In this document: piece after piece, positions 7,943-16,704 of the stretch
Numbering within the stretch: position 1 is the first letter of the stretch
Layout of the letters: every line of letters begins with the position of its first letter
Source: Clostridiales bacterium
GTDB taxonomy: Bacteria > Bacillota > Clostridia > Lachnospirales > Lachnospiraceae
DNA length: 40,008 nucleotides
Direction of reading: 5' to 3'
Assembly (NCBI GenBank): GCA_023663185.1
Contig: JAMPHY010000025.1
Span: forward strand, 1 to 40,008
Notes under the pieces: model-generated
Told to the model about the DNA's origin: nothing
What the model saw: the letters and a program-made list of their open reading frames with translations, nothing else
Database searches by the model: none
Made by a program: the position numbers and the translations under genes

Positions 7943-8476
7943 ATGATGGTATTAGTTATCGGAGGGAGTGGAAGCGGCAAATCTTTTTATGCTGAGGACG
8001 TGACTCTTGATTTGGCAAAAACTGATATGAAAAAATATTATCTTGCAACAATGCAGGTCTATGACGAAGAAGGCAGGCAGAAAGTTAAGAAGCATAGGAA
8101 ACTAAGAGATGGCAAAGGTTTTGTTACAATCGAGCAGCCGATTGAAATTGACAGGGCGATTGAGAAAATGGAAGATGGGGAGAAGAGTGTGCTGCTTGAA
8201 TGTATATCCAATCTGACAGCAAATGAAATGTTTGCGGAAGGAGAACCTAAAACGGAGGTTCAGACTGCGGAAAGCATTATAAGAGGCGTAAAGATGATAA
8301 AAGAGAAGACAAGCAATCTTATTGTGGTAAGCAATAATGTATTTGAAGATGGAGAGGTTTATGACGAAACCACGAGGGAATATATTCAGGCGATGGGAAG
8401 AATTAACATAGAGCTTGCGAAGCTAGCCGATAAAGTTGTGGAAGTTGTGGCGGGGATTCCGGTAAGGATAAAATAA
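7943..8476 (+). CDS. cobU: Adenosylcobinamide kinase / guanylyltransferase CobU
   Basis: CobU phosphorylates adenosylcobinamide and then attaches GMP to give adenosyl-GDP-cobinamide. The P-loop is GGSGSGKS (residues 7-14), the probable guanylylated histidine is His51 in KKHRKLR, and LLECISNLTANEMF matches the CobU core. The C-terminus ends VVAGIPVRIK as usual. It has 177 residues. Two adjacent ATGs (7943, 7946) both follow GGGCGGGGG. The family's typical VSNEVG loop is altered to VSNNVFEDGEVY. A second, shorter CobU relative lies at 9486. Confidence 0.9.
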   Translation: MMVLVIGGSGSGKSFYAEDVTLDLAKTDMKKYYLATMQVYDEEGRQKVKKHRKLRDGKGFVTIEQPIEIDRAIEKMEDGEKSVLLECISNLTANEMFAEGEPKTEVQTAESIIRGVKMIKEKTSNLIVVSNNVFEDGEVYDETTREYIQAMGRINIELAKLADKVVEVVAGIPVRIK

Positions 8477-8486
8477 TTGCAAAACA

Positions 8487-8665
8487 GAACTCTTTCATAT
8501 GTTACGTTGTACAATATATACAAAACAACGTAGGGCACGCTTCCGCTGCATTGCCGCCAGTAGCGGTACTAAGCTCGAAAAAACCTCGCTAAGTACCGAC
8601 GCCGGCAGAGCACCCTGCGTTATTTTGTATATATTGTACAACTTACGCTGTGAAATATGAAGTTC
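8487..8665 (+). repeat. Nested palindromic repeat element, copy A
   Basis: This fills the cobU-cobS gap. Outer arms begin GAACTCTTTCATATG on the left and end CATATTTC-like on the right. A perfect 20-bp inverted repeat occupies 8506-8525 and 8623-8642. The core is CGGTACT (8564-8570) facing AGTACCG (8592-8598) around CTCGAAAAAACCTCG. The core and the GGCACGCT segment recur in copies B and C. No coding potential is apparent. It could be a non-autonomous (MITE-like) element or an RNA processing or attenuation signal. Confidence 0.75.
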
Positions 8666-8706
8666 ATAGTTATATAAATGCTGATTGATTATGAAAGGAA
8701 GCATAC

Positions 8707-9480
8707 ATGGGAATAATAAAATCTTTTTTTATAGCGGTATCTACATATTCAATAATTCCGGCGCCGCAATTTGAATGGAAGGAAGAAGATATGAAATATA
8801 TTTTCTGCTTCTTTCCGTGGATTGGCGCTTTGATTGGCGTCTGCATTTATTTCTGGAATTGGGTATGCGATGTCTATTATATAGGTACATTATGTCGCAG
8901 CGCGGTATCGCTTGCGATTCTGCTTATAATTACCGGCGGGCTTCATGTGGACGGGTTTATGGATACGATGGACGCCGTACATTCATACAGTCCGAAGGAA
9001 AGAAAGCTGGAAATATTAAAGGATTCTCATATTGGGGCTTTTGCCGTTATTATGCTTATTGCTTATGGATTAATTGTTCTGGGAGCGTTTTCAGAGATAG
9101 ACAATAAAGCGTTGTTGAAAATTGTATGCGGAGGATTTTTCCTCTCGCGCTGTCTGTGCGGTATCAGCGCAGTTTCTTTTCCGTTGGCAAAAAAGGACGG
9201 TATGCTGTATACCTTTACGGACAGCTCGCATAAAAAAATTGTCAATTTTTCACTATACATACAAAGCGCGTTATGTATAGGGCTAATGTGCTATTGGTCG
9301 TTTCTGGCAGGTTTGATTGTGGCAGCGGCGGCGATTTTGGCGCTTGTCTATTATTTTTATAAGAGCAGAAAAGAATTCGGCGGAGTCTCCGGTGATACGG
9401 CGGGATATTTCATACTTCTTAGTGAAGGCTGTATTATGCTGGTTGTGGCATTTATTAATATTTTTATATGGAGAGCGTGA
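8707..9480 (+). CDS. cobS: Adenosylcobinamide-GDP ribazoletransferase CobS
   Basis: This membrane enzyme joins adenosyl-GDP-cobinamide to the alpha-ribotide, the last assembly step. It has 257 residues with five to six hydrophobic segments. GGLHVDGFMDTMDAVHSYSPKERKLEILKDSH contains the family's conserved acidic DGxxDxxD-type motif (residues shown in two parts: GGLHVDGFMDTMDA, then KLEILKDSHIGAFA). GAAAGGAAG precedes the ATG. It follows repeat copy A and ends five bases before the CobU-like gene. Confidence 0.93.
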   Translation: MGIIKSFFIAVSTYSIIPAPQFEWKEEDMKYIFCFFPWIGALIGVCIYFWNWVCDVYYIGTLCRSAVSLAILLIITGGLHVDGFMDTMDAVHSYSPKERKLEILKDSHIGAFAVIMLIAYGLIVLGAFSEIDNKALLKIVCGGFFLSRCLCGISAVSFPLAKKDGMLYTFTDSSHKKIVNFSLYIQSALCIGLMCYWSFLAGLIVAAAAILALVYYFYKSRKEFGGVSGDTAGYFILLSEGCIMLVVAFINIFIWRA

Positions 9481-9485
9481 AGAAA

Positions 9486-9872
9486 ATGAGATTAATAATA
9501 GGCGGAAGGGCGCAGGGAAAATTAGAATATGTGCTTTTAAACTATGATGTGCAGGAAAGTGTTGTATATGACGGAACGCTTCCGAATGATTCTGACGATA
9601 CAGGGAGTAAGACTGTGGTGATTAATCACTTTCACCAGTGGGTTAGAAACCGCATATTAAACGGTGGCGCGCCGGAGAGCGAGATTCAGTCGTATGTGGA
9701 TAATAATGAGAACTGTATCATTATATGTGACGAGATTGGAAACGGAATCGTTCCGATAGAACCTTTTGAAAGAGAATACAGGGAGCGTGTAGGACGGATT
9801 CTCGTGCAGCTTGCCAAAAGAGCAGAGGGGGTAGAGCGCGTTATATGCGGGATTGGACAGAAAATAAAGTAA
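9486..9872 (+). CDS. Short CobU-like protein (adenosylcobinamide kinase/guanylyltransferase family)
   Basis: This 128-residue protein resembles CobU at both ends but lacks the middle. The N-terminus has GGRAQGKLEY, where the P-loop Ser/Thr after Lys is Leu. The C-terminus IICDEIGNGIVPIEPFEREY matches the VSNEVGxGIVP region of CobU, and the end is GIGQKIK. The ATG at 9486 is chosen because GGAGAG precedes it by ten bases; that site lies in the end of cobS. The full CobU is 1 kb upstream, so this may be a regulatory or specialised partner. Loss of the guanylylated histidine region makes full CobU activity unlikely. Confidence 0.75.
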   Translation: MRLIIGGRAQGKLEYVLLNYDVQESVVYDGTLPNDSDDTGSKTVVINHFHQWVRNRILNGGAPESEIQSYVDNNENCIIICDEIGNGIVPIEPFEREYRERVGRILVQLAKRAEGVERVICGIGQKIK

Positions 9873-10492
9873 CGCTTATATTGATTCGGCATGGTGCGAC
9901 GAAAGCGAACGAAGAGCATAGATATCTAGGGAAAACCAATGAACCGCTTGCGGAAAAGGGAAGAGAAATTTTGAAATCATATAAGGCGAAGAAGCTTTAT
10001 CCCGATGTGGATTATCTGTTTAGCAGCCCGATGAGAAGGTGTATCGATACGGCAAAAATTATTTATCCCTCGCTTACGCCGATTGTTATTCCCGAATGGG
10101 AGGAGATTGATTTCGGGCGGTTTGAATATAAAAATTACGAAGAATTAAAAAACGATGCACAGTATCAGAAATGGATTGATAGTCAGGGTGTGCTGGATTT
10201 CCCAGAGGGTGAGCGTAGAGCGGACTTTATGCAAAGATGTAAAAGCGGATTTATAAAGATGTGTAATGAATTGAACAAAGCGGCAGTTAAAGATGGGAAA
10301 AAAGATATCATGGCGGGTATGGTGGTCCACGGTGGAACTATCATGTCGATAATGAGTCTGTATGCGGGTGGTAATTATTTTGATTATCAGGTCTTAAACG
10401 GTAGAGGGTATGTATGCAGTATGGAAAATATTAATGGTGGTGAAATGCTTGATGTGGAGAATTTAAGTTTAAAGGTGCAGATGGAAATATAG
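9845..10492 (+). CDS. cobC: Histidine phosphatase family protein, probable alpha-ribazole phosphatase (CobC-like)
   Basis: This is expected to remove the 5'-phosphate from alpha-ribazole phosphate or from adenosylcobalamin phosphate. The phosphohistidine motif is LILIRHGATKANEE, followed by LFSSPMRRCIDTAKI. The conserved acid is in WEEIDFGRFEYKNYEEL and the second catalytic histidine is in MVVHGGTIMSIMS. It has 215 residues. The ATG lies inside the CobU-like gene (28-base overlap) with only a weak binding site, suggesting coupling. The family also contains phosphoglycerate mutases, but the position supports CobC. Confidence 0.85.
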   Translation: MRDWTENKVTLILIRHGATKANEEHRYLGKTNEPLAEKGREILKSYKAKKLYPDVDYLFSSPMRRCIDTAKIIYPSLTPIVIPEWEEIDFGRFEYKNYEELKNDAQYQKWIDSQGVLDFPEGERRADFMQRCKSGFIKMCNELNKAAVKDGKKDIMAGMVVHGGTIMSIMSLYAGGNYFDYQVLNGRGYVCSMENINGGEMLDVENLSLKVQMEI

Positions 10493-10583
10493 AAATTGCC
10501 GGTGTGAATAAAGGTATGTGCTACAGGATATTTGTGCTGGCATTGTAGATGTCTTGGATATAATTCGCAGATGAGGAAGGGGT

Positions 10584-11582
10584 GTGGCTATTGATATGCG
10601 ATATCACATAATTGCTTTTTTTACAGGATTTCTGCTGGATTTGATATTTGGGGACCCGCATTTTCTTCCGCACCCGATTAGGCTGATTGGAAAATTGATA
10701 ACGGAAACCGAAAGAATATTAAGGGGAACGAATGCGCAGATAGATAAAAATAAAGTTGATAGCGATACAAGGGAATTTCGGCAGGGGCTTGCATTGACGC
10801 TCATTGTCATTATATGTGTGGTGACAACTGTGTCATTTATTCTGCTTGCGGCATATAGAATACACATATATTTGGGAATAGCGGCAGAGTGCATTATGAC
10901 CTATCAGATACTTGCGGTAAAATGCTTAAAAGTGGAGAGCATGAAGGTATATAAATGCCTGAAAGATGATGATATAGAACAGGCAAGGAAAGCCGTCTCA
11001 ATGATTGTGGGAAGGGATACAGAATGTCTTGACAGCGAGGGAATTACAAAGGCGGCGGTTGAAACGGTAGCGGAGAATACTTCCGACGGCGTAATTGCGC
11101 CGATGTTGTATCTGGCGATTGGTGGTCCGATACTTGCCTTCTTATATAAAGCGATAAATACAATGGATTCCATGATTGGATATAAAAATGACAGATATCT
11201 GTATTTTGGCAGGGCGGCGGCAAAGCTGGACGATTTGGTAAATTTCATTCCGTCAAGAATAAGCGCGTATCTTATGATTGCGGCAACTTTTTTTGCCGGC
11301 AGCGATTTTTCTACCAAAGGCGCATATGAAATTTATAAAAGGGATAGAAAAAAACATGCCAGCCCCAATTCCGGACAGACAGAAGCGGTGTGCGCAGGCG
11401 CGCTTTCTATCAGGCTTGCAGGGGATACCAGCTACTTTGGAAAAATAGTAAAAAAACAGTATATAGGCGATATGATTCGCAAGGCGGAATATGAAGATAT
11501 CAGACGTGTGAACAGGCTTATGTATATTACTGCATGGTTGTGCGAGGGGTTGTGTGTGCTGGTGATATTGATACTGTGGTAA
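10584..11582 (+). CDS. cbiB: Adenosylcobinamide-phosphate synthase CbiB
   Basis: This membrane protein attaches aminopropanol phosphate (or threonine-derived linker) to adenosylcobyric acid. It has 332 residues. LLDLIFGDPHFLPHPIRLIG near the N-terminus and TVAENTSDGVIAPMLY in the middle are family hallmarks, and PNSGQTEAVCAGALSIRL is also conserved. The GTG at 10584 is favoured because GAGGAAG lies five bases upstream. The ATG at 10596 is an alternative. It lies directly before cobD, which makes its substrate. Confidence 0.92.
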   Translation: MAIDMRYHIIAFFTGFLLDLIFGDPHFLPHPIRLIGKLITETERILRGTNAQIDKNKVDSDTREFRQGLALTLIVIICVVTTVSFILLAAYRIHIYLGIAAECIMTYQILAVKCLKVESMKVYKCLKDDDIEQARKAVSMIVGRDTECLDSEGITKAAVETVAENTSDGVIAPMLYLAIGGPILAFLYKAINTMDSMIGYKNDRYLYFGRAAAKLDDLVNFIPSRISAYLMIAATFFAGSDFSTKGAYEIYKRDRKKHASPNSGQTEAVCAGALSIRLAGDTSYFGKIVKKQYIGDMIRKAEYEDIRRVNRLMYITAWLCEGLCVLVILILW

Positions 11583-11627
11583 CAGTTCCGTCTGAGAACT
11601 GAACTGCTACATAATGGAGGAAAGTAA

Positions 11628-12668
11628 ATGGGTATTCATGGCGGCGATATTTATAGAAATCATGTGAATATTGATTTTTCGATTAATGTAAATCCGCTTG
11701 GAACGCCGGAAACTGTGAAGGAAGCTCTTCACCGAGCGGTTGAGATGTGCGGAAGGTATCCGGATATAGAGGCGGAAAAGTTAAAGACTGCGGTTAGTGG
11801 ATTTCTTGGAGTGCCAAAAGAATATTTACTGTTTGGAAACGGAGCGTCAGAACTTTTGCTGGCTGCTGTCAACGGGATAAATCCGCGCAGGACGGTGATA
11901 CCCGTACCGTCTTTTTACGGCTATGAGCATGCGGCAAAGTCAGTCGGCGGAGAGATTATTTATTATGAAATGAAGAAGGAAAACGGTTTCTGTCTTACGG
12001 AAGATATAAAGCGGATTTTGACGCAGGATATAGACCTTCTTTTCCTTGCCAATCCCAATAACCCTGTGGGAAATCTTGCAGATAAAGAGATGTTAAAGGG
12101 GCTGCTTGTGCATTGCAGGGACAGAGGAATTTATGTGGTAATGGACGAATGTTTTATTGAGTTTTGTGAAAATCGCTTTTCGCTGATTTCAGAAATTGAA
12201 GAGTTTGAAAATCTCATACTTGTGAGAGCGTTTACGAAGATTTTTTCTATTCCGGGAGTGCGGCTTGGATATCTGGCATGTAAAAATAAATCGCTCTGCA
12301 TTCAAATAGCAGACAAACTTCCCGAATGGAATCTTTCGTGCTTCGCGCAGGAAGCAGGTTGTGTGTGTGCAAGAGAGAGGGCGTTTATTGAGGAAACAAG
12401 AAGATATATTGAGAAAGAACGAGAGTTTATGGAAAGCGGATTTAAGGACAGAGGCTTTAAAGTATTTCCGTCCACAGCGAATTTTATTATGGTTTACAGT
12501 GATATTCCGTTATATGAAAAGCTGCTTAAAGAGGGGATTTTAATAAGAGACTGCAGTAATTTCAGAGGGCTTGGGAAGGGTTATTGCAGAATTGCTATAA
12601 AGAGCAGGGGGGAAAATGAGATGTTGCTTAAGGCGATATGCGGTATGAACTCATATGTTTACTCTTGA
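11628..12668 (+). CDS. cobD: Threonine-phosphate decarboxylase CobD (PLP-dependent)
   Basis: This decarboxylates L-threonine O-3-phosphate to (R)-1-aminopropan-2-ol phosphate for CbiB. It is a fold-type I aminotransferase relative with 346 residues. NPNNPVG (142-148) is conserved, and Lys204 in RAFTKIFSIPGVRLGY is the probable PLP lysine. GGAGGAAAG precedes the ATG. The last seven residues (MNSYVYS) and the stop codon are encoded by the left arm of palindromic repeat B, so the original C-terminus has probably been replaced. Histidinol-phosphate aminotransferase is the main alternative, made unlikely by context. Confidence 0.9.
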   Translation: MGIHGGDIYRNHVNIDFSINVNPLGTPETVKEALHRAVEMCGRYPDIEAEKLKTAVSGFLGVPKEYLLFGNGASELLLAAVNGINPRRTVIPVPSFYGYEHAAKSVGGEIIYYEMKKENGFCLTEDIKRILTQDIDLLFLANPNNPVGNLADKEMLKGLLVHCRDRGIYVVMDECFIEFCENRFSLISEIEEFENLILVRAFTKIFSIPGVRLGYLACKNKSLCIQIADKLPEWNLSCFAQEAGCVCARERAFIEETRRYIEKEREFMESGFKDRGFKVFPSTANFIMVYSDIPLYEKLLKEGILIRDCSNFRGLGKGYCRIAIKSRGENEMLLKAICGMNSYVYS

Positions 12669-12790
12669 GGCCCTTGGAAAACGCCGGTCCTTAGTGAAAA
12701 AGGCGCAAAAGCGGCTTTTGAACTTAGTACCGCTGCGATTTTCCACGGAGCGAGAGCGTGCCTCAAAAGTAAACATATGAGTTCATGCCG
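12641..12790 (+). repeat. Nested palindromic repeat element, copy B
   Basis: Terminal arms of 31 bp (12641-12671 and 12760-12790) differ at two positions and begin CGGTATGAACTCATATG. Read on the minus strand, the interior gives GCACGCTCTCGCTCCGTG, then GCAGCGGTACTAAG, an AAAAGC-rich loop and CTAAGGACCGGCGTTTT, matching copy C in the same order. It is therefore inverted relative to C. It overlaps the end of cobD and separates cobD from cbiC. Confidence 0.8.
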
Positions 12791-12845
12791 CCCCCGACAT
12801 CATACTGAACAATTAATATATACGCTGAAAGGATTGGTTATTAAA

Positions 12846-13499
12846 ATGGATCATACAATAGAATATCTTCCACCGGACGAAATTGAAAAGAAAAGCTTTG
12901 AAATCATTAGCGAAGAACTAGTAAAAAGGGGCGTAAGTCTGCCGAAAGAGGAAGAGCTGATTACAAAGCGGGTGATACATACGAGCGCGGACTTTGATTA
13001 TGCTGAAACATTGCGCTATTCAGATAGAGCCGTGGAAATATTGAAAGGGCTTATAAAAAATGGCGCCGATATAGTAACGGATACCAATATGGCGTTAGCG
13101 GGGATTAATAAAAAGACGCTTGCCAAATTTGGCGGGCAGGCTCATTGTTTTATGGCGGATAAGGACGTGGCGCTTTTAGCAAAGCGGAAAAATGTGACAC
13201 GTGCGTCAGTTAGTATGGAAAAGGCAGCAGGAATTAATAAACCTGTGGTTTTTGCAATCGGCAACGCACCTACAGCGCTGCTTAAGTTGTATGAGTTGTA
13301 TGAAATGTCAAAGGAAGACGGTGCGAGTAATTGGAAGCCTGCTTTTATTATAGGCGTACCGGTAGGCTTCGTCAATGTGGAGGCGGCAAAGGAACTTATA
13401 TTAAAAACGGATATTCCTTATATAATTAACAGGGGGCGAAAGGGTGGAAGTAATATTGCCGCGGCAATTTGTAATGCAGTATTATATCAAATCACATAA
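12846..13499 (+). CDS. cbiC: Cobalt-precorrin-8 methylmutase CbiC
   Basis: CbiC moves the C-11 methyl group to C-12, giving cobyrinic acid. It has 217 residues. The active-site histidine is His45 in KRVIHTSADFDYAETL. GADIVTDTNMALAGINK and FAIGNAPTALLKLYEL are conserved. The ATG at 12846 is chosen. It follows GAAAGGA and begins the conserved part, whereas the in-frame ATG at 12777 lies in the right arm of repeat B and would add 23 unrelated residues. Confidence 0.93.
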   Translation: MDHTIEYLPPDEIEKKSFEIISEELVKRGVSLPKEEELITKRVIHTSADFDYAETLRYSDRAVEILKGLIKNGADIVTDTNMALAGINKKTLAKFGGQAHCFMADKDVALLAKRKNVTRASVSMEKAAGINKPVVFAIGNAPTALLKLYELYEMSKEDGASNWKPAFIIGVPVGFVNVEAAKELILKTDIPYIINRGRKGGSNIAAAICNAVLYQIT

Positions 13500-13517
13500 A
13501 AAGAGGAGAAACTTAAG

Positions 13518-14633
13518 ATGCGATATGGTTTTACAACCGGAAGCTGCGCGGCAGCCGCAGCAAAAGCCGCCGCGTATATGCTGTTGACCGGATTAAAGAA
13601 AACGGAAATCACAATAGAGACTCCGAAGGGGCTTGAATATAAGGCGAAAATTCTTGATATCATGCAAAGCGAGAATGAAGTAAGCTGCGCCGTGGAAAAA
13701 GACGGCGGGGACGATCCCGACATTACAACAGGCGCATGGATTTACGCCAAAGTTTCATATGCAGAAGGAAGCGGAGATGAAAGAATAATCATTGACGGCG
13801 GTGTAGGAGTAGGCAGGGTGACAAGACCGGGACTCGACCAGCCCGTAGGCAATGCCGCAATCAATCATGTGCCGAGAGAAATGATAATGACAGAAGTGTC
13901 AGAAGTATGTAGAATAGCGGATTATAAGGGGAGTTTAAGGGTGGAAATCTCTGTGCCAGAGGGCGAAGCGTTGAGCGAACATACTTTTAATTCAAGACTC
14001 GGTATCGTGGGCGGCATTTCTATATTAGGGACGAGCGGTATCGTGGAACCTATGAGTTCTCAGGCGCTTTTAGAGACTATACGGTTGGAACTGCGTCAAA
14101 GAAGGGAATTAGGGTTTGACTATGTTGCAGTCTCACCGGGCAATTATGGCTTGGATTTTATGAAAAAGACCTACAATTATGATTTAGATAAAAGTGTAAA
14201 ATGCAGCAACTTTATTGGGGCGGTAATTGATATGGCGGTGGAATTAGGATTTAAGAAAATGCTGATAACAGGGCATATCGGCAAACTGATTAAAGTCGCC
14301 GGTGGAATTATGAATACACATTCTAAAGAGGCGGACTGCCGCATGGAACTTCTGGCGGCGTTTTCCCTAGCGGAAGGCGTGGAAGTTGAACTGGTTCGGA
14401 AAATATTAGAATGCGTTACTACGGAAGAAACGATACCTATTTTGGCAGAAAGCGGGAAAATGAATCAGGTCATGGAAAAGATAGCAGAGCGGATTTGCTT
14501 TTATATGGAAAACCGCGCAGGCGGAAAGTTGAAGATTGATTGTATCCTATATGCAAATGAATATGGTGAGTTGGCAAAAAGTAAGGGGGCGAGATATTGG
14601 TTTATTTTATTGGAGCGGGAACAGGCGCAGTAG
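13518..14633 (+). CDS. cbiD: Cobalt-precorrin-5B C1-methyltransferase CbiD
   Basis: CbiD methylates C-1 of cobalt-precorrin-5B using S-adenosylmethionine. The N-terminus RYGFTTGSCAAAAAKAA is diagnostic. DGGDDPDITTG, GGVGVGRVTRPGL and TGHIGKLIKVAGG are further conserved blocks. It has 371 residues with an AGAGGAG binding site. It lies 18 bases after cbiC, and its end overlaps the start of cbiF by 37 bases. Confidence 0.95.
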   Translation: MRYGFTTGSCAAAAAKAAAYMLLTGLKKTEITIETPKGLEYKAKILDIMQSENEVSCAVEKDGGDDPDITTGAWIYAKVSYAEGSGDERIIIDGGVGVGRVTRPGLDQPVGNAAINHVPREMIMTEVSEVCRIADYKGSLRVEISVPEGEALSEHTFNSRLGIVGGISILGTSGIVEPMSSQALLETIRLELRQRRELGFDYVAVSPGNYGLDFMKKTYNYDLDKSVKCSNFIGAVIDMAVELGFKKMLITGHIGKLIKVAGGIMNTHSKEADCRMELLAAFSLAEGVEVELVRKILECVTTEETIPILAESGKMNQVMEKIAERICFYMENRAGGKLKIDCILYANEYGELAKSKGARYWFILLEREQAQ

Positions 14634-15352
14634 ATTTAATAACGGTCAGGGGAATGCGCTTGTTGGAAAGTGCAGATGTGATTATTTACGCAGGTTCTTT
14701 AGTGAATCCGGAACTGCTTGCGTATGCGAAGCAAGACTGCCGCGTGCATAATAGTGCAAAATTAACGTTGACGGAAGTAATAAATATTATGAAAGAAGCG
14801 GAAGCCGAAGGAAAAACTACCGTGCGTCTTCATACAGGTGAGCCGAGCATTTATGGGGCGGTCAGGGAGCAGATGGACGAGCTTGATAAACTTGGCATTG
14901 CTTATGAGAGTTGTCCGGGCGTGAGCGCATGTTTTGGCGCGGCGGCGTCTTTGAATCTCGAATACACGCTGCCGGGGATTTCGCAGTCCCTTATTATTAC
15001 GAGAATGGAAGGAAGGACTGCGATGCCGGAGAAAGAAAGCATTGAGAGTTTTGCGGCGCACAATGCGTCTATGGCGATTTATTTAAGCGCGGGAATGATT
15101 GAGGAATTAAGCAGGCGGCTCATAGAGGGCGGATATGCGAAGACCACGCCGGCAGCGTTAGTATACAAGGCGACATGGGAAGAAGAGCAGGCATATGTCT
15201 GTACTATCGAGACCTTGTATGATACGTCTATAGAGCATGGGATTACGAAAACGGCGTTAATATTGGTGGGAGATGCGATAGCACATAGGAATTATAGGAA
15301 ATCAAGGTTATATGCGGCGGATTTTTCAACGGGATATAGGAATGCGGAATAG
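14597..15352 (+). CDS. cbiF: Cobalt-precorrin-4 C11-methyltransferase CbiF (TTG start)
   Basis: CbiF methylates C-11 of cobalt-precorrin-4. The N-terminus VYFIGAGTGAVDLITVRG holds the SAM-binding glycines, followed by YAGSLVNPELL, LHTGEPSIYGAVREQMD and the PGVSACFGAAASL segment. It has 251 residues. The start is a TTG, set by AAGGGGG seven bases upstream and by the immediate start of the conserved strand. No ATG is available before it is too late. The stop codon lies in a 16-bp tandem repeat. Confidence 0.94.
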   Translation: MVYFIGAGTGAVDLITVRGMRLLESADVIIYAGSLVNPELLAYAKQDCRVHNSAKLTLTEVINIMKEAEAEGKTTVRLHTGEPSIYGAVREQMDELDKLGIAYESCPGVSACFGAAASLNLEYTLPGISQSLIITRMEGRTAMPEKESIESFAAHNASMAIYLSAGMIEELSRRLIEGGYAKTTPAALVYKATWEEEQAYVCTIETLYDTSIEHGITKTALILVGDAIAHRNYRKSRLYAADFSTGYRNAE

Positions 15353-15400
15353 GTTGAATGCGGGATAGACTGAATGCAGGATAGGTTGAATACGGCATGG
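15341..15400 (+). repeat. 16-bp tandem repeat at the end of cbiF
   Basis: Units start at 15341, 15357, 15373 and 15389 (the last partial), with consensus AATGCGGGATAGGTTG. The cbiF stop codon lies in unit one, so the array looks like repeated duplication of the gene's 3' tip. It runs into the left arm of palindromic repeat C. Confidence 0.75.
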
Positions 15401-15580
15401 ACTCATATGCTTCCGCTTGAGGTACGCTCTCGCTCCGTGTATAAACAAACGAATGCCACGCTACGCGGACATTCTTATTGTTACGCAGCGGTACTAAGCT
15501 CAAAAGCTAAAAAACAAGCTTTTTCGCTAAGTACCGGCGTTTTACAAGGACCTCAAGCGGAAGCATATGAGTCCATGCCG
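15393..15580 (+). repeat. Nested palindromic repeat element, copy C
   Basis: Perfect 31-bp terminal inverted repeats (15393-15423 and 15550-15580) begin CGGCATGGACTCATATG. The interior carries ACGCTCTCGCTCCGTG (from 15424), GCAGCGGTACTAAGCTC (from 15485), a self-complementary AAAAGCT...AGCTTTTT loop and CGCTAAGTACCGGCGTTTT (from 15525). It lies in the cbiF-cbiG gap and is the most intact of the three copies. A 78-codon open frame crosses it but is composed only of the repeat. Confidence 0.82.
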
Positions 15581-15624
15581 CCCAACGCTGTGGAAAGTGT
15601 CAATGGGTAGGTTGAGGAGCAGAT

Positions 15625-16704
15625 ATGAGATTAAGTATAATAAGTTTTACGGAGAGCGGAAAAGTGCTTTCGGCAAGCATTGCGGAAACTATCGAAAATG
15701 ATTTGGACATAGAAGTCTACCTTTATACAAAATGTCATAACTATGTAGATAAAGCTGTGTCTTTGATGTCGCCGCATGTAGAGTATGTAGAAAGTTCACT
15801 TGCGGATTGGACGAAAGAGCGTATGCGGGAAAAAGACGCGCTGCTTTTTATAGGCGCATGTGGAATTGCGGTAAGGGCGATAGCTCCGTTTCTCACGGAC
15901 AAGCTGCATGATGTGCCTGTGCTGGTGATGGACGAAAAAGGGAAATATATCATTCCGATTTTGTCAGGACATATGGGCGGGGCAAATGAACTTGCAAGGT
16001 ATATCGCGGGGAAAATGGGAGCGGAAGCAGTGATTACAACAGCGACCGATATTAATGGAAAATTTGCAGTCGATTTATTTGCCAAAAGAAATAATCTCCA
16101 TATCGTCAATAAGGACGGGATTGTTAAAGTGTCATCAAAAGCGATTGCCGACGAAGAGATTACGATATCAATAGAGACAGGACATGAAATCATCGGTGTA
16201 AGGGACGGCGTGCGGATTGTTCCTTATCCGCCGGAACAATTCACTGACATAGTTGTCACTTCTAAAGATGATAAATTTGATGTCTGTGTCATATTGAAAC
16301 CGCGTGAATATGTGATAGGCTTCGGCTGTAAAAAGGGAAAAGTCATAAAGGAAATCGAGAGCTTTATTTTTGATAAATTAAATGAACTCGGCATTTCAAT
16401 AACGCAGGTTGCGGAGCTTGCGTCTGTGTCTAATAAGCGCGGCGAACAGGGGATAATTGACTGGTGTAAAAAAGAAGGGCTTCCCTTTATAACATATACG
16501 GCGGAGGAATTAGAGAAGGTGGACGGAAACTTTACGGCTTCTACATTTGTTAAGGCGCAGGTGGGCGTAGACAATGTATGTGAGAGGGCGGCTGTAAAAG
16601 GCTGTGGAGAATGCGGCAAACTGATTGCGCCAAAGACGGCGGAGAACGGTATGACAATCGCGGTTGCGAAGAAGGAATGGAAGGTATGTTTTGATGAAGA
16701 ATAG
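15625..16704 (+). CDS. cbiG: Cobalt-precorrin-5A hydrolase CbiG
   Basis: CbiG opens the delta-lactone of cobalt-precorrin-5A and releases the two-carbon fragment as acetaldehyde. It has 359 residues. The central domain carries DALLFIGACGIAVRAIAPFL and ILSGHMGGANELARYIA. The C-terminal CobE-like domain begins YVIGFGCKKGK and contains the ASVSNKRGEQGI block. GAGGAGCAG precedes the ATG. Its last 11 bases overlap cbiH. Confidence 0.93.
   Translation: MRLSIISFTESGKVLSASIAETIENDLDIEVYLYTKCHNYVDKAVSLMSPHVEYVESSLADWTKERMREKDALLFIGACGIAVRAIAPFLTDKLHDVPVLVMDEKGKYIIPILSGHMGGANELARYIAGKMGAEAVITTATDINGKFAVDLFAKRNNLHIVNKDGIVKVSSKAIADEEITISIETGHEIIGVRDGVRIVPYPPEQFTDIVVTSKDDKFDVCVILKPREYVIGFGCKKGKVIKEIESFIFDKLNELGISITQVAELASVSNKRGEQGIIDWCKKEGLPFITYTAEELEKVDGNFTASTFVKAQVGVDNVCERAAVKGCGECGKLIAPKTAENGMTIAVAKKEWKVCFDEE

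Follow-up and report, generated by a model that had tools for sequence, protein, structure and literature searches.

Three nested palindromic elements, here called copies A, B and C, lie within a cobalamin operon in the window, a 40,008-nucleotide (nt) stretch of contig JAMPHY010000025.1 from a Clostridiales bacterium of the Lachnospiraceae (assembly GCA_023663185.1). They are best explained, with a probability of about 0.7, as members of one family of small, non-autonomous mobile hairpins resembling miniature inverted-repeat transposable elements (MITEs), which has expanded in this Lachnospiraceae lineage and has been shaped by template switching. At least 83 copies are present in the genome, the arms are matched within copies, and at orthologous sites in a sister species a copy may be present, absent, replaced or reduced to a scar. 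The genome comprises 3.83 Mb in 54 contigs, of which the window is contig 17. Taxonomy is based on the labels of metagenome-assembled genomes (MAGs), and open reading frames (ORFs) were called with a simple, crude procedure.

The hairpin family and its distribution

The copies in the window are as follows.

8475..8691, plus strand: copy A, with type 2 arms (TACGTTGTACAATATATACAAAACAACGTAGG); the extent is taken from the empty sister site and the ends are uncertain by a few nt
8534..8614, plus strand: asymmetric conserved core of copy A, GGCACGCTTCCGCT ... CGGTACTAAGCTC ... CTAAGTACCG ... GCACC, with CGGTACTAAG..CTAAGTACCG at 8564-8598
12640..12791, minus strand: copy B, with type 1 arms (CATATG type) and its core on the minus strand
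15393..15580, plus strand: copy C, with type 1 arms; outer arm pairs matched at 31 of 31

A preliminary description of the window had placed three copies at these sites (copy A at 8487-8665), and they were found there, together with the common order of a GCACGCTNNCGCT block, CGGTACTAAG, a loop and CTAAGTACCG, outer arms that are complementary within a copy and divergent between copies, and a CGGYATGRACTCATATG end common to copies B and C. The CATATG outer arm attributed to all three is present in copies B and C; copy A is of another arm type, with TTGTACA arms, and its CATATG was not equated with that of the other two. As described, the neighbours are co-directional genes of the cobalamin operon. 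Copy B, opposite in orientation to copies A and C, covers the final 29 nt of the cobD ORF (11628-12668). No fourth intact copy was detected in the 40 kb with a covariance model or with the core pattern at up to two mismatches. The proposed restriction to the cobalamin locus did not hold, as the 13-nt core CGGTACTAAGCTC (at most one mismatch) had 87 matches in the genome, against one for a reversed-pattern control, and covariance model matches were found throughout. The sister species had 186 core matches, against five for the control.

The covariance model was built from 20 copies and 150 of 1205 candidates were scored, giving 142 rows in which many copies were present on both strands. Altogether 84 distinct places were collected in the own genome, one of which (L098) is a chance match. 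The elements are 150-190 bp long, non-coding and almost always intergenic; by the crude ORF calls, none of 81 own copies and two of 52 sister copies lay inside an ORF. Own copies are placed singly and dispersed over the genome. Among the 81 own copies, 54 lie between co-directional genes (39 in the gene direction and 15 opposite), 12 in convergent gaps, 11 in divergent gaps and four in gaps with one flank called. The corresponding numbers for the 52 sister copies are 33 co-directional (17 and 16), seven convergent, seven divergent and three with one flank, in addition to the two in ORFs.

The exact core occurred in 48 of 77 genomes of the genus, the own genome included, with counts from 0 to 150 and 78 in the own genome. 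Exact cores were most numerous in four genomes, namely the sister (G036), the own genome (G000), G033 and G034; G060, the nearest relative after the sister (78 % in a cbiD search), had no exact core. A stricter pattern was used family-wide, so that its four positive genomes among 397 (own included) are a lower bound. In other genera it gave ten matches in G400 and one each in G162 and G368. The G400 and G162 loci keep the architecture with changed letters, while the G368 match looks like chance. Searches with a core pattern in viral contigs, with copy C in plasmids and with copy A in phages gave no match, and no description of this hairpin family was found among the open-licence PubMed Central papers listed.

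All copies follow one plan. Outermost, in some copies only, is an outer inverted repeat of one of three types, inside which lie arms of about 30 bp that vary among copies and pair within each. A mini-hairpin, GC(TNNC)GC, is present in the left arm only, and its 2-bp stem covaries at both pairs (GC to AU in ten and CG to UA in four of 98 copies). The core stem is interrupted by a G.A mismatch and by two bulges, T and AG. Further inward come a second stem, CGGTAC/GTACCG, then an A.A mismatch within a TAA/TAA internal loop and, at the apex, a variable loop. CGGTACTAAG formed the left apical strand in 76 of the 84 own copies and 53 of the 59 sister copies; a right apical strand starting CTAA was found in 78 and 54, respectively. 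Type 1 and type 2 cores were compared by eye. Optional hairpin modules occupy fixed positions within the element. In the fetched own sequence, a 20-nt module occurred 14 times, always near a core, and a 49-nt module four times, three of them near a core; at one orthologous site two modules are present in the own copy and missing from that of the sister.

Arm pairing and orthologous sites

Pairing between the arms was examined at several levels. With a hand-made structure for 20 copies, 70 cells showed changes on both sides and no cell a one-sided change. Across 98 copies of both species, in an alignment fitted to the structure, which favours a pairing result, 94.9 % of 4005 pair cells were paired and 596 were double-changed; none of 500 shuffles reached as high a covariation. 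The arms were also matched in an arm alignment made without the model. If pairing were selected through RNA, G.U pairs should be favoured over A.C mismatches, while DNA pairing or arm-to-arm copying should show no such preference. In the 4005 cells, G.T (70) and A.C (64) were equally rare. Over whole arms the numbers were 105 G.T and 121 A.C in own copies and 96 and 83 in sister copies, and on the transcribed strand 54 and 55 (75 of 87 co-directional copies, both species). This indicates that pairing is maintained at the level of DNA and not through RNA folding.

Orthologous sites were compared in large stretches of the sister (781 kb) and the own genome (approximately 777 kb), about one-fifth of each; the two species are approximately 90 % identical. 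Both flanks could be matched for 23 own and 33 sister copies, in two overlapping lists. At the 23 own sites the other species had a copy in the same orientation in 12 cases, inverted in two and in both orientations in two, while seven had no typical core. The 33 sister sites comprised 14 in the same orientation, three labelled automatically as inverted and 16 without a typical core. Among the sites without a typical core are the gaps of copy B and L079, which contain different hairpins in the other species. Reading of the alignments showed the core inverted within unchanged arms at two sites only (L016/L189 and L057/L224); the automatic inversion label of L199/L242 reflects two neighbouring copies and no inversion.

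Clean insertions exist, for example sister L194 compared with own L238. In the sister cobalamin operon, site A is empty (L121, with the sequence GATAAAATGAAAGG and no element), site C has the right arm only, and the copy B gap is occupied instead by a type 2 element together with a hairpin of a second family. These differences in presence between sister species support the preliminary suggestion of MITE-like elements. A further long palindromic insert, with no counterpart in the window, lies near the cobS end in the sister (L121:3411-3607).

Ten orthologous pairs in the same orientation showed 23 both-arm and 28 one-arm changes; nine of the latter came from one pair misaligned by an inserted module. 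Without this pair there were 22 both-arm and 19 one-arm changes in 270 positions, with fewer than four double changes expected if the arms were independent. L009 and L023, which have different arm types in the two species, were excluded from this count. Orthologous arms thus change in concert, in line with the earlier proposal of selection or gene conversion acting on pairing rather than on sequence.

Remnants and rearrangements of elements were found in the window and elsewhere. Three further features of the window are as follows.

15441..15483, plus strand: extra hairpin module within copy C, AAACAAACGAATGCC...GGACATTCTTATTGTT
15340..15395, plus strand: tandem array of a 16-nt unit (3.5 units) that extends into copy C at its left end
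11579..11610 (32 nt), no strand assigned: short palindrome between cbiB and cobD

The right end of the copy C module had seven matches in the fetched own sequence, all near a core, and its left end had three weaker, chance-like matches distant from cores. The palindrome at 11579-11610 is probably the scar of a deleted element, because the sister has a full copy at that place (L121:5811-5964). Core-deleted scars were also found at the L093 site in the sister and at L273, L275 and L278 in the own genome, and tandem duplications to the left of the L004 copy and of the copy that the sister has at the L089 site. Scars and left-flank tandem duplications fit the same hairpin-driven process as the matched arms.

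A second, unrelated hairpin family was observed in both species. Its core is ACGGRGCTCC(AA)TGCCTGAAAAGCGGTAAGTCGCYCCTTA and its arms consist of GAGTTT, about seven free nt and ATGAACAAAA; the free stretch varies among many copies, and within a hairpin its two sides are mostly complementary. The 33 rows collected include at least one false row (L280) and a few broken copies, and contained 13 G.T and 20 A.C mismatches. Loci are L163, L198, L208, L210, L211, L212, L215, L216 and L223 in the sister and L004, L035, L240 and L246 in the own genome. That two unrelated hairpins are built alike points to a general process in these genomes.

Other observations concern the surroundings of the copies. The CobD protein had as its closest named relative the MAG Butyrivibrio sp. 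NALB_7823_4 (88 % identity); the remaining matches carried mostly Lachnospiraceae-type labels and one was labelled Bacillus sp. The genes flanking the three copies are all cobalamin genes in a single orientation. Intrinsic terminators were rejected as an explanation, with nine sites in 8400-15700 compared with 5.9 in shuffles; the sole site touching an element is on the minus strand within the copy C insert. The only Rfam match above gathering score in the window was a tRNA gene truncated by the contig end (39955-40008), which was not listed by ARAGORN.

Mobility and alternative explanations

The proposed mechanism has two components. During replication the palindrome would fold into a hairpin or cruciform and one arm would be copied from the other by template switching, a process for which arm homogenisation and spacer inversion between inverted repeats are described in the sections of PMC8604942 consulted. 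The same kind of event could flip the core and, on failure, could delete it, leaving behind a short palindrome as a scar or tandemly duplicated flanking sequence. Insertion of new copies would be due to a trans-acting transposase that recognises the outer inverted repeats (of GTTACTRTTCACAG, GGTAATTGCGAAAC or GYAACAGTTCAGCC type) and generates direct repeats; this mobilising enzyme may be lost or unusual. Any effects on the expression of cobalamin genes would be by-products of the position of insertion. The mismatches of the core are probably a recognition signal, because they are kept while the arms are homogenised. Template switching leaves their survival unexplained; the simplest inference is that selection maintains a folded form or the binding of a protein.

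Flanking repeats were consistent with insertion for a minority of copies. Direct repeats of 25 bp (23 matched), 13 bp (12 matched) and 8 bp (8 matched) were found within 3 nt of the outer repeats. Among the 21 copies with both outer repeats, a direct-repeat score of at least 8 was reached by three, compared with 1.0 % of shuffled pairings, and a score of at least 5 by five, compared with 9.6 %. In 112 copies passing a flank filter, scores of at least 13 were found in 6.2 % (0.9 % in shuffled pairings) and of at least 10 in 25 % (12 %). Of 18 stretches around isolated matches resembling the type 1 (T1) outer repeat, at least eight looked by eye like core-deleted scars and about six like chance matches. 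T1 outer repeats also surround a different hairpin at L216:12636-12829 (194 bp), and type 2 (T2) repeats surround the unrelated hairpin of the second family, clearly in L214 and less clearly in L223. This indicates that outer repeats and cores have been mixed.

A mobilising enzyme was sought by protein family and by matching ends. The families PF01797 (Y1/RAYT), PF00078 (reverse transcriptase), PF00665 and PF00872 were each matched in 25 to 37 of the 77 genus genomes (PF01797 in 30), and PF00078 had two matches in G056, where PF01797 had none. The autonomous transposase with matching ends envisaged in the preliminary description was not found among five Pfam families; in approximately 1.6 Mb of own and sister sequence, outer repeats facing each other at up to 4 kb were also sought. 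The facing-repeat search yielded core-bearing copies, the L216 hairpin and two pairs 3.5-3.8 kb apart (L233 and L255), whose left ends lie in scar-like short palindromes and whose intervening genes were not looked at. No transposase was seen by eye beside the element at eight loci of other species (five from single-match genomes), where no family search was made.

Several of these results weigh against mobile hairpins shaped by template switching. Both outer repeats were found in only 21 of 145 copies (pattern with up to three mismatches), and the T1 pattern was only about twice as frequent genome-wide as its reversed control (82 and 39, two mismatches). Convincing direct repeats accompany only three to five of the 21 copies and are of inconstant length, so that classical transposition is not proven. 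None of the four families PF01797, PF00078, PF00665 and PF00872 had a match in G000, G036, G033 or G034, and the PF01609 genes that were present (one own and two sister, one of the latter presumably resembling IS1182) all had no matching ends. The bias of own copies towards the gene direction (39 compared with 15) is not predicted by pure insertion, whereas the sister copies are unbiased. Some of the apparently concerted arm differences may have arisen when another copy took over a site, and not by homogenisation. Finally, selection on DNA pairing by an enzyme that reads folded DNA would also match the arms with no excess of G.T.

One alternative is that the bulged core is a recombination site in folded single-stranded DNA, similar to attC, that is read by a recombinase, with arms free in sequence as long as they pair. 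The A.A mismatch, the AG bulge and the covarying mini-hairpin kept amid free arms are in keeping with it, as are the recurrence of the architecture, in altered letters, in two other genera (the G400 loci and L114), the equal numbers of G.T and A.C and the unrelated second family of the same design. However, copies are single and dispersed, with no cassette arrays, no linked recombinase was found (IntI and attC boxes were not searched for), and template switching alone accounts for arm homogenisation and inversion, so this explanation is considered unlikely. A wider proposal, also unlikely, is a previously undescribed class of mobile hairpins coded by structure, in which a recombinase would read the core as folded single-stranded DNA, any pairing sequence would serve as arms, and hairpins would nest and swap outer repeats and cores, a design common to type 1, type 2 and the second family. 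Quite unlikely is selection for RNA folding, by which the elements would be structured RNAs acting in operon transcripts as stabilisers, processing sites or attenuators. The RNA folds of copies A, B and C are very stable (z = -8.7, -12.7 and -14.5, respectively, relative to shuffles), co-directional genes flank 54 of the 81 own copies, 39 of which read the same way as the genes, and the core is recognisable in other species. Against this, G.T was not commoner than A.C in the arms, whether these were read in the orientation of the element or on the transcribed strand of co-directional gaps, which also disfavours the RNA alternative raised in the preliminary description. In addition, divergent and convergent gaps were about equal (11 and 12 of 81), copy B runs antisense to the operon that contains it, many orthologous sites do not conserve the presence of a copy, and there was no Rfam match at gathering score over the elements. 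At E values up to 5, Rfam gave two weak matches below gathering score, neither on a core.

Mobilisation as REPINs by a Y1 transposase of RAYT type is disfavoured and very improbable: REPINs share with the present elements the small size, intergenic position, high copy number and compensatory arm changes, as reported in the portion of PMC3116915 consulted, yet PF01797 was not matched in any of five genomes with many copies (own, sister, G033, G034 and G056). Chance duplication of an operon spacer is refuted by the genome-wide copies and by covariation beyond all 500 shuffles. The preliminary description had linked such an origin to a lack of further copies and of compensatory changes in relatives, and both were found. 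A regulatory RNA specific to cobalamin genes was rejected on the genome-wide copies together with the gap-orientation and mismatch data, and a retroelement origin (retron, group II intron or other) on the lack of PF00078 matches in the four genomes with the most cores.

Relation to known systems and significance

The elements share features with several known systems and match none of them fully. As in bacterial MITEs, going by the part of PMC10969869 consulted, they are short (<200 bp here), non-coding, intergenic and high-copy and form strong hairpins; a minority of copies show outer inverted repeats at both ends, and a few of these probable flanking direct repeats. Unlike bacterial MITEs, they have arms that vary between copies yet match within them, cores that flip, different cores with common outer repeats, and no insertion sequence with matching ends found among the families searched. 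The REPIN/REP-RAYT systems are likewise intergenic mobile hairpins with compensatory stem changes according to the passages drawn on from PMC3116915, so this feature alone is not new; the present elements differ in their greater length, conserved bulged core and lack of a Y1 transposase match in the genome. Pneumococcal BOX elements, in the excerpted account of PMC3049150, which also names ERIC and Correia, are short modular intergenic repeats with optional modules, whereas here the modules are hairpins nested in one another, and pairing is preserved in arms of freely varying sequence. Integron attC sites resemble the present core in having conserved unpaired bases in a hairpin of otherwise little-conserved sequence (PMC2727003, in part); unlike attC, no cassettes or arrays were seen here, attC boxes and integrase not having been searched for. 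Template switching as set out in the extract of PMC8604942 includes arm homogenisation and spacer inversion, both of which were found at orthologous sites, and differs from the present case in that a whole mobile family is involved here and the core mismatches are kept.

Covariation alone is no proof of a functional RNA, as the 596 double changes found here came with no preference for G.T. Dozens of dispersed copies with matched yet mutually different arms, flips and scars, brought out by the comparison of just two sister species, form a natural record of hairpin-driven template switching. If the core mismatches are indeed a recognition signal, an enzyme that reads folded DNA would await discovery in common gut bacteria.

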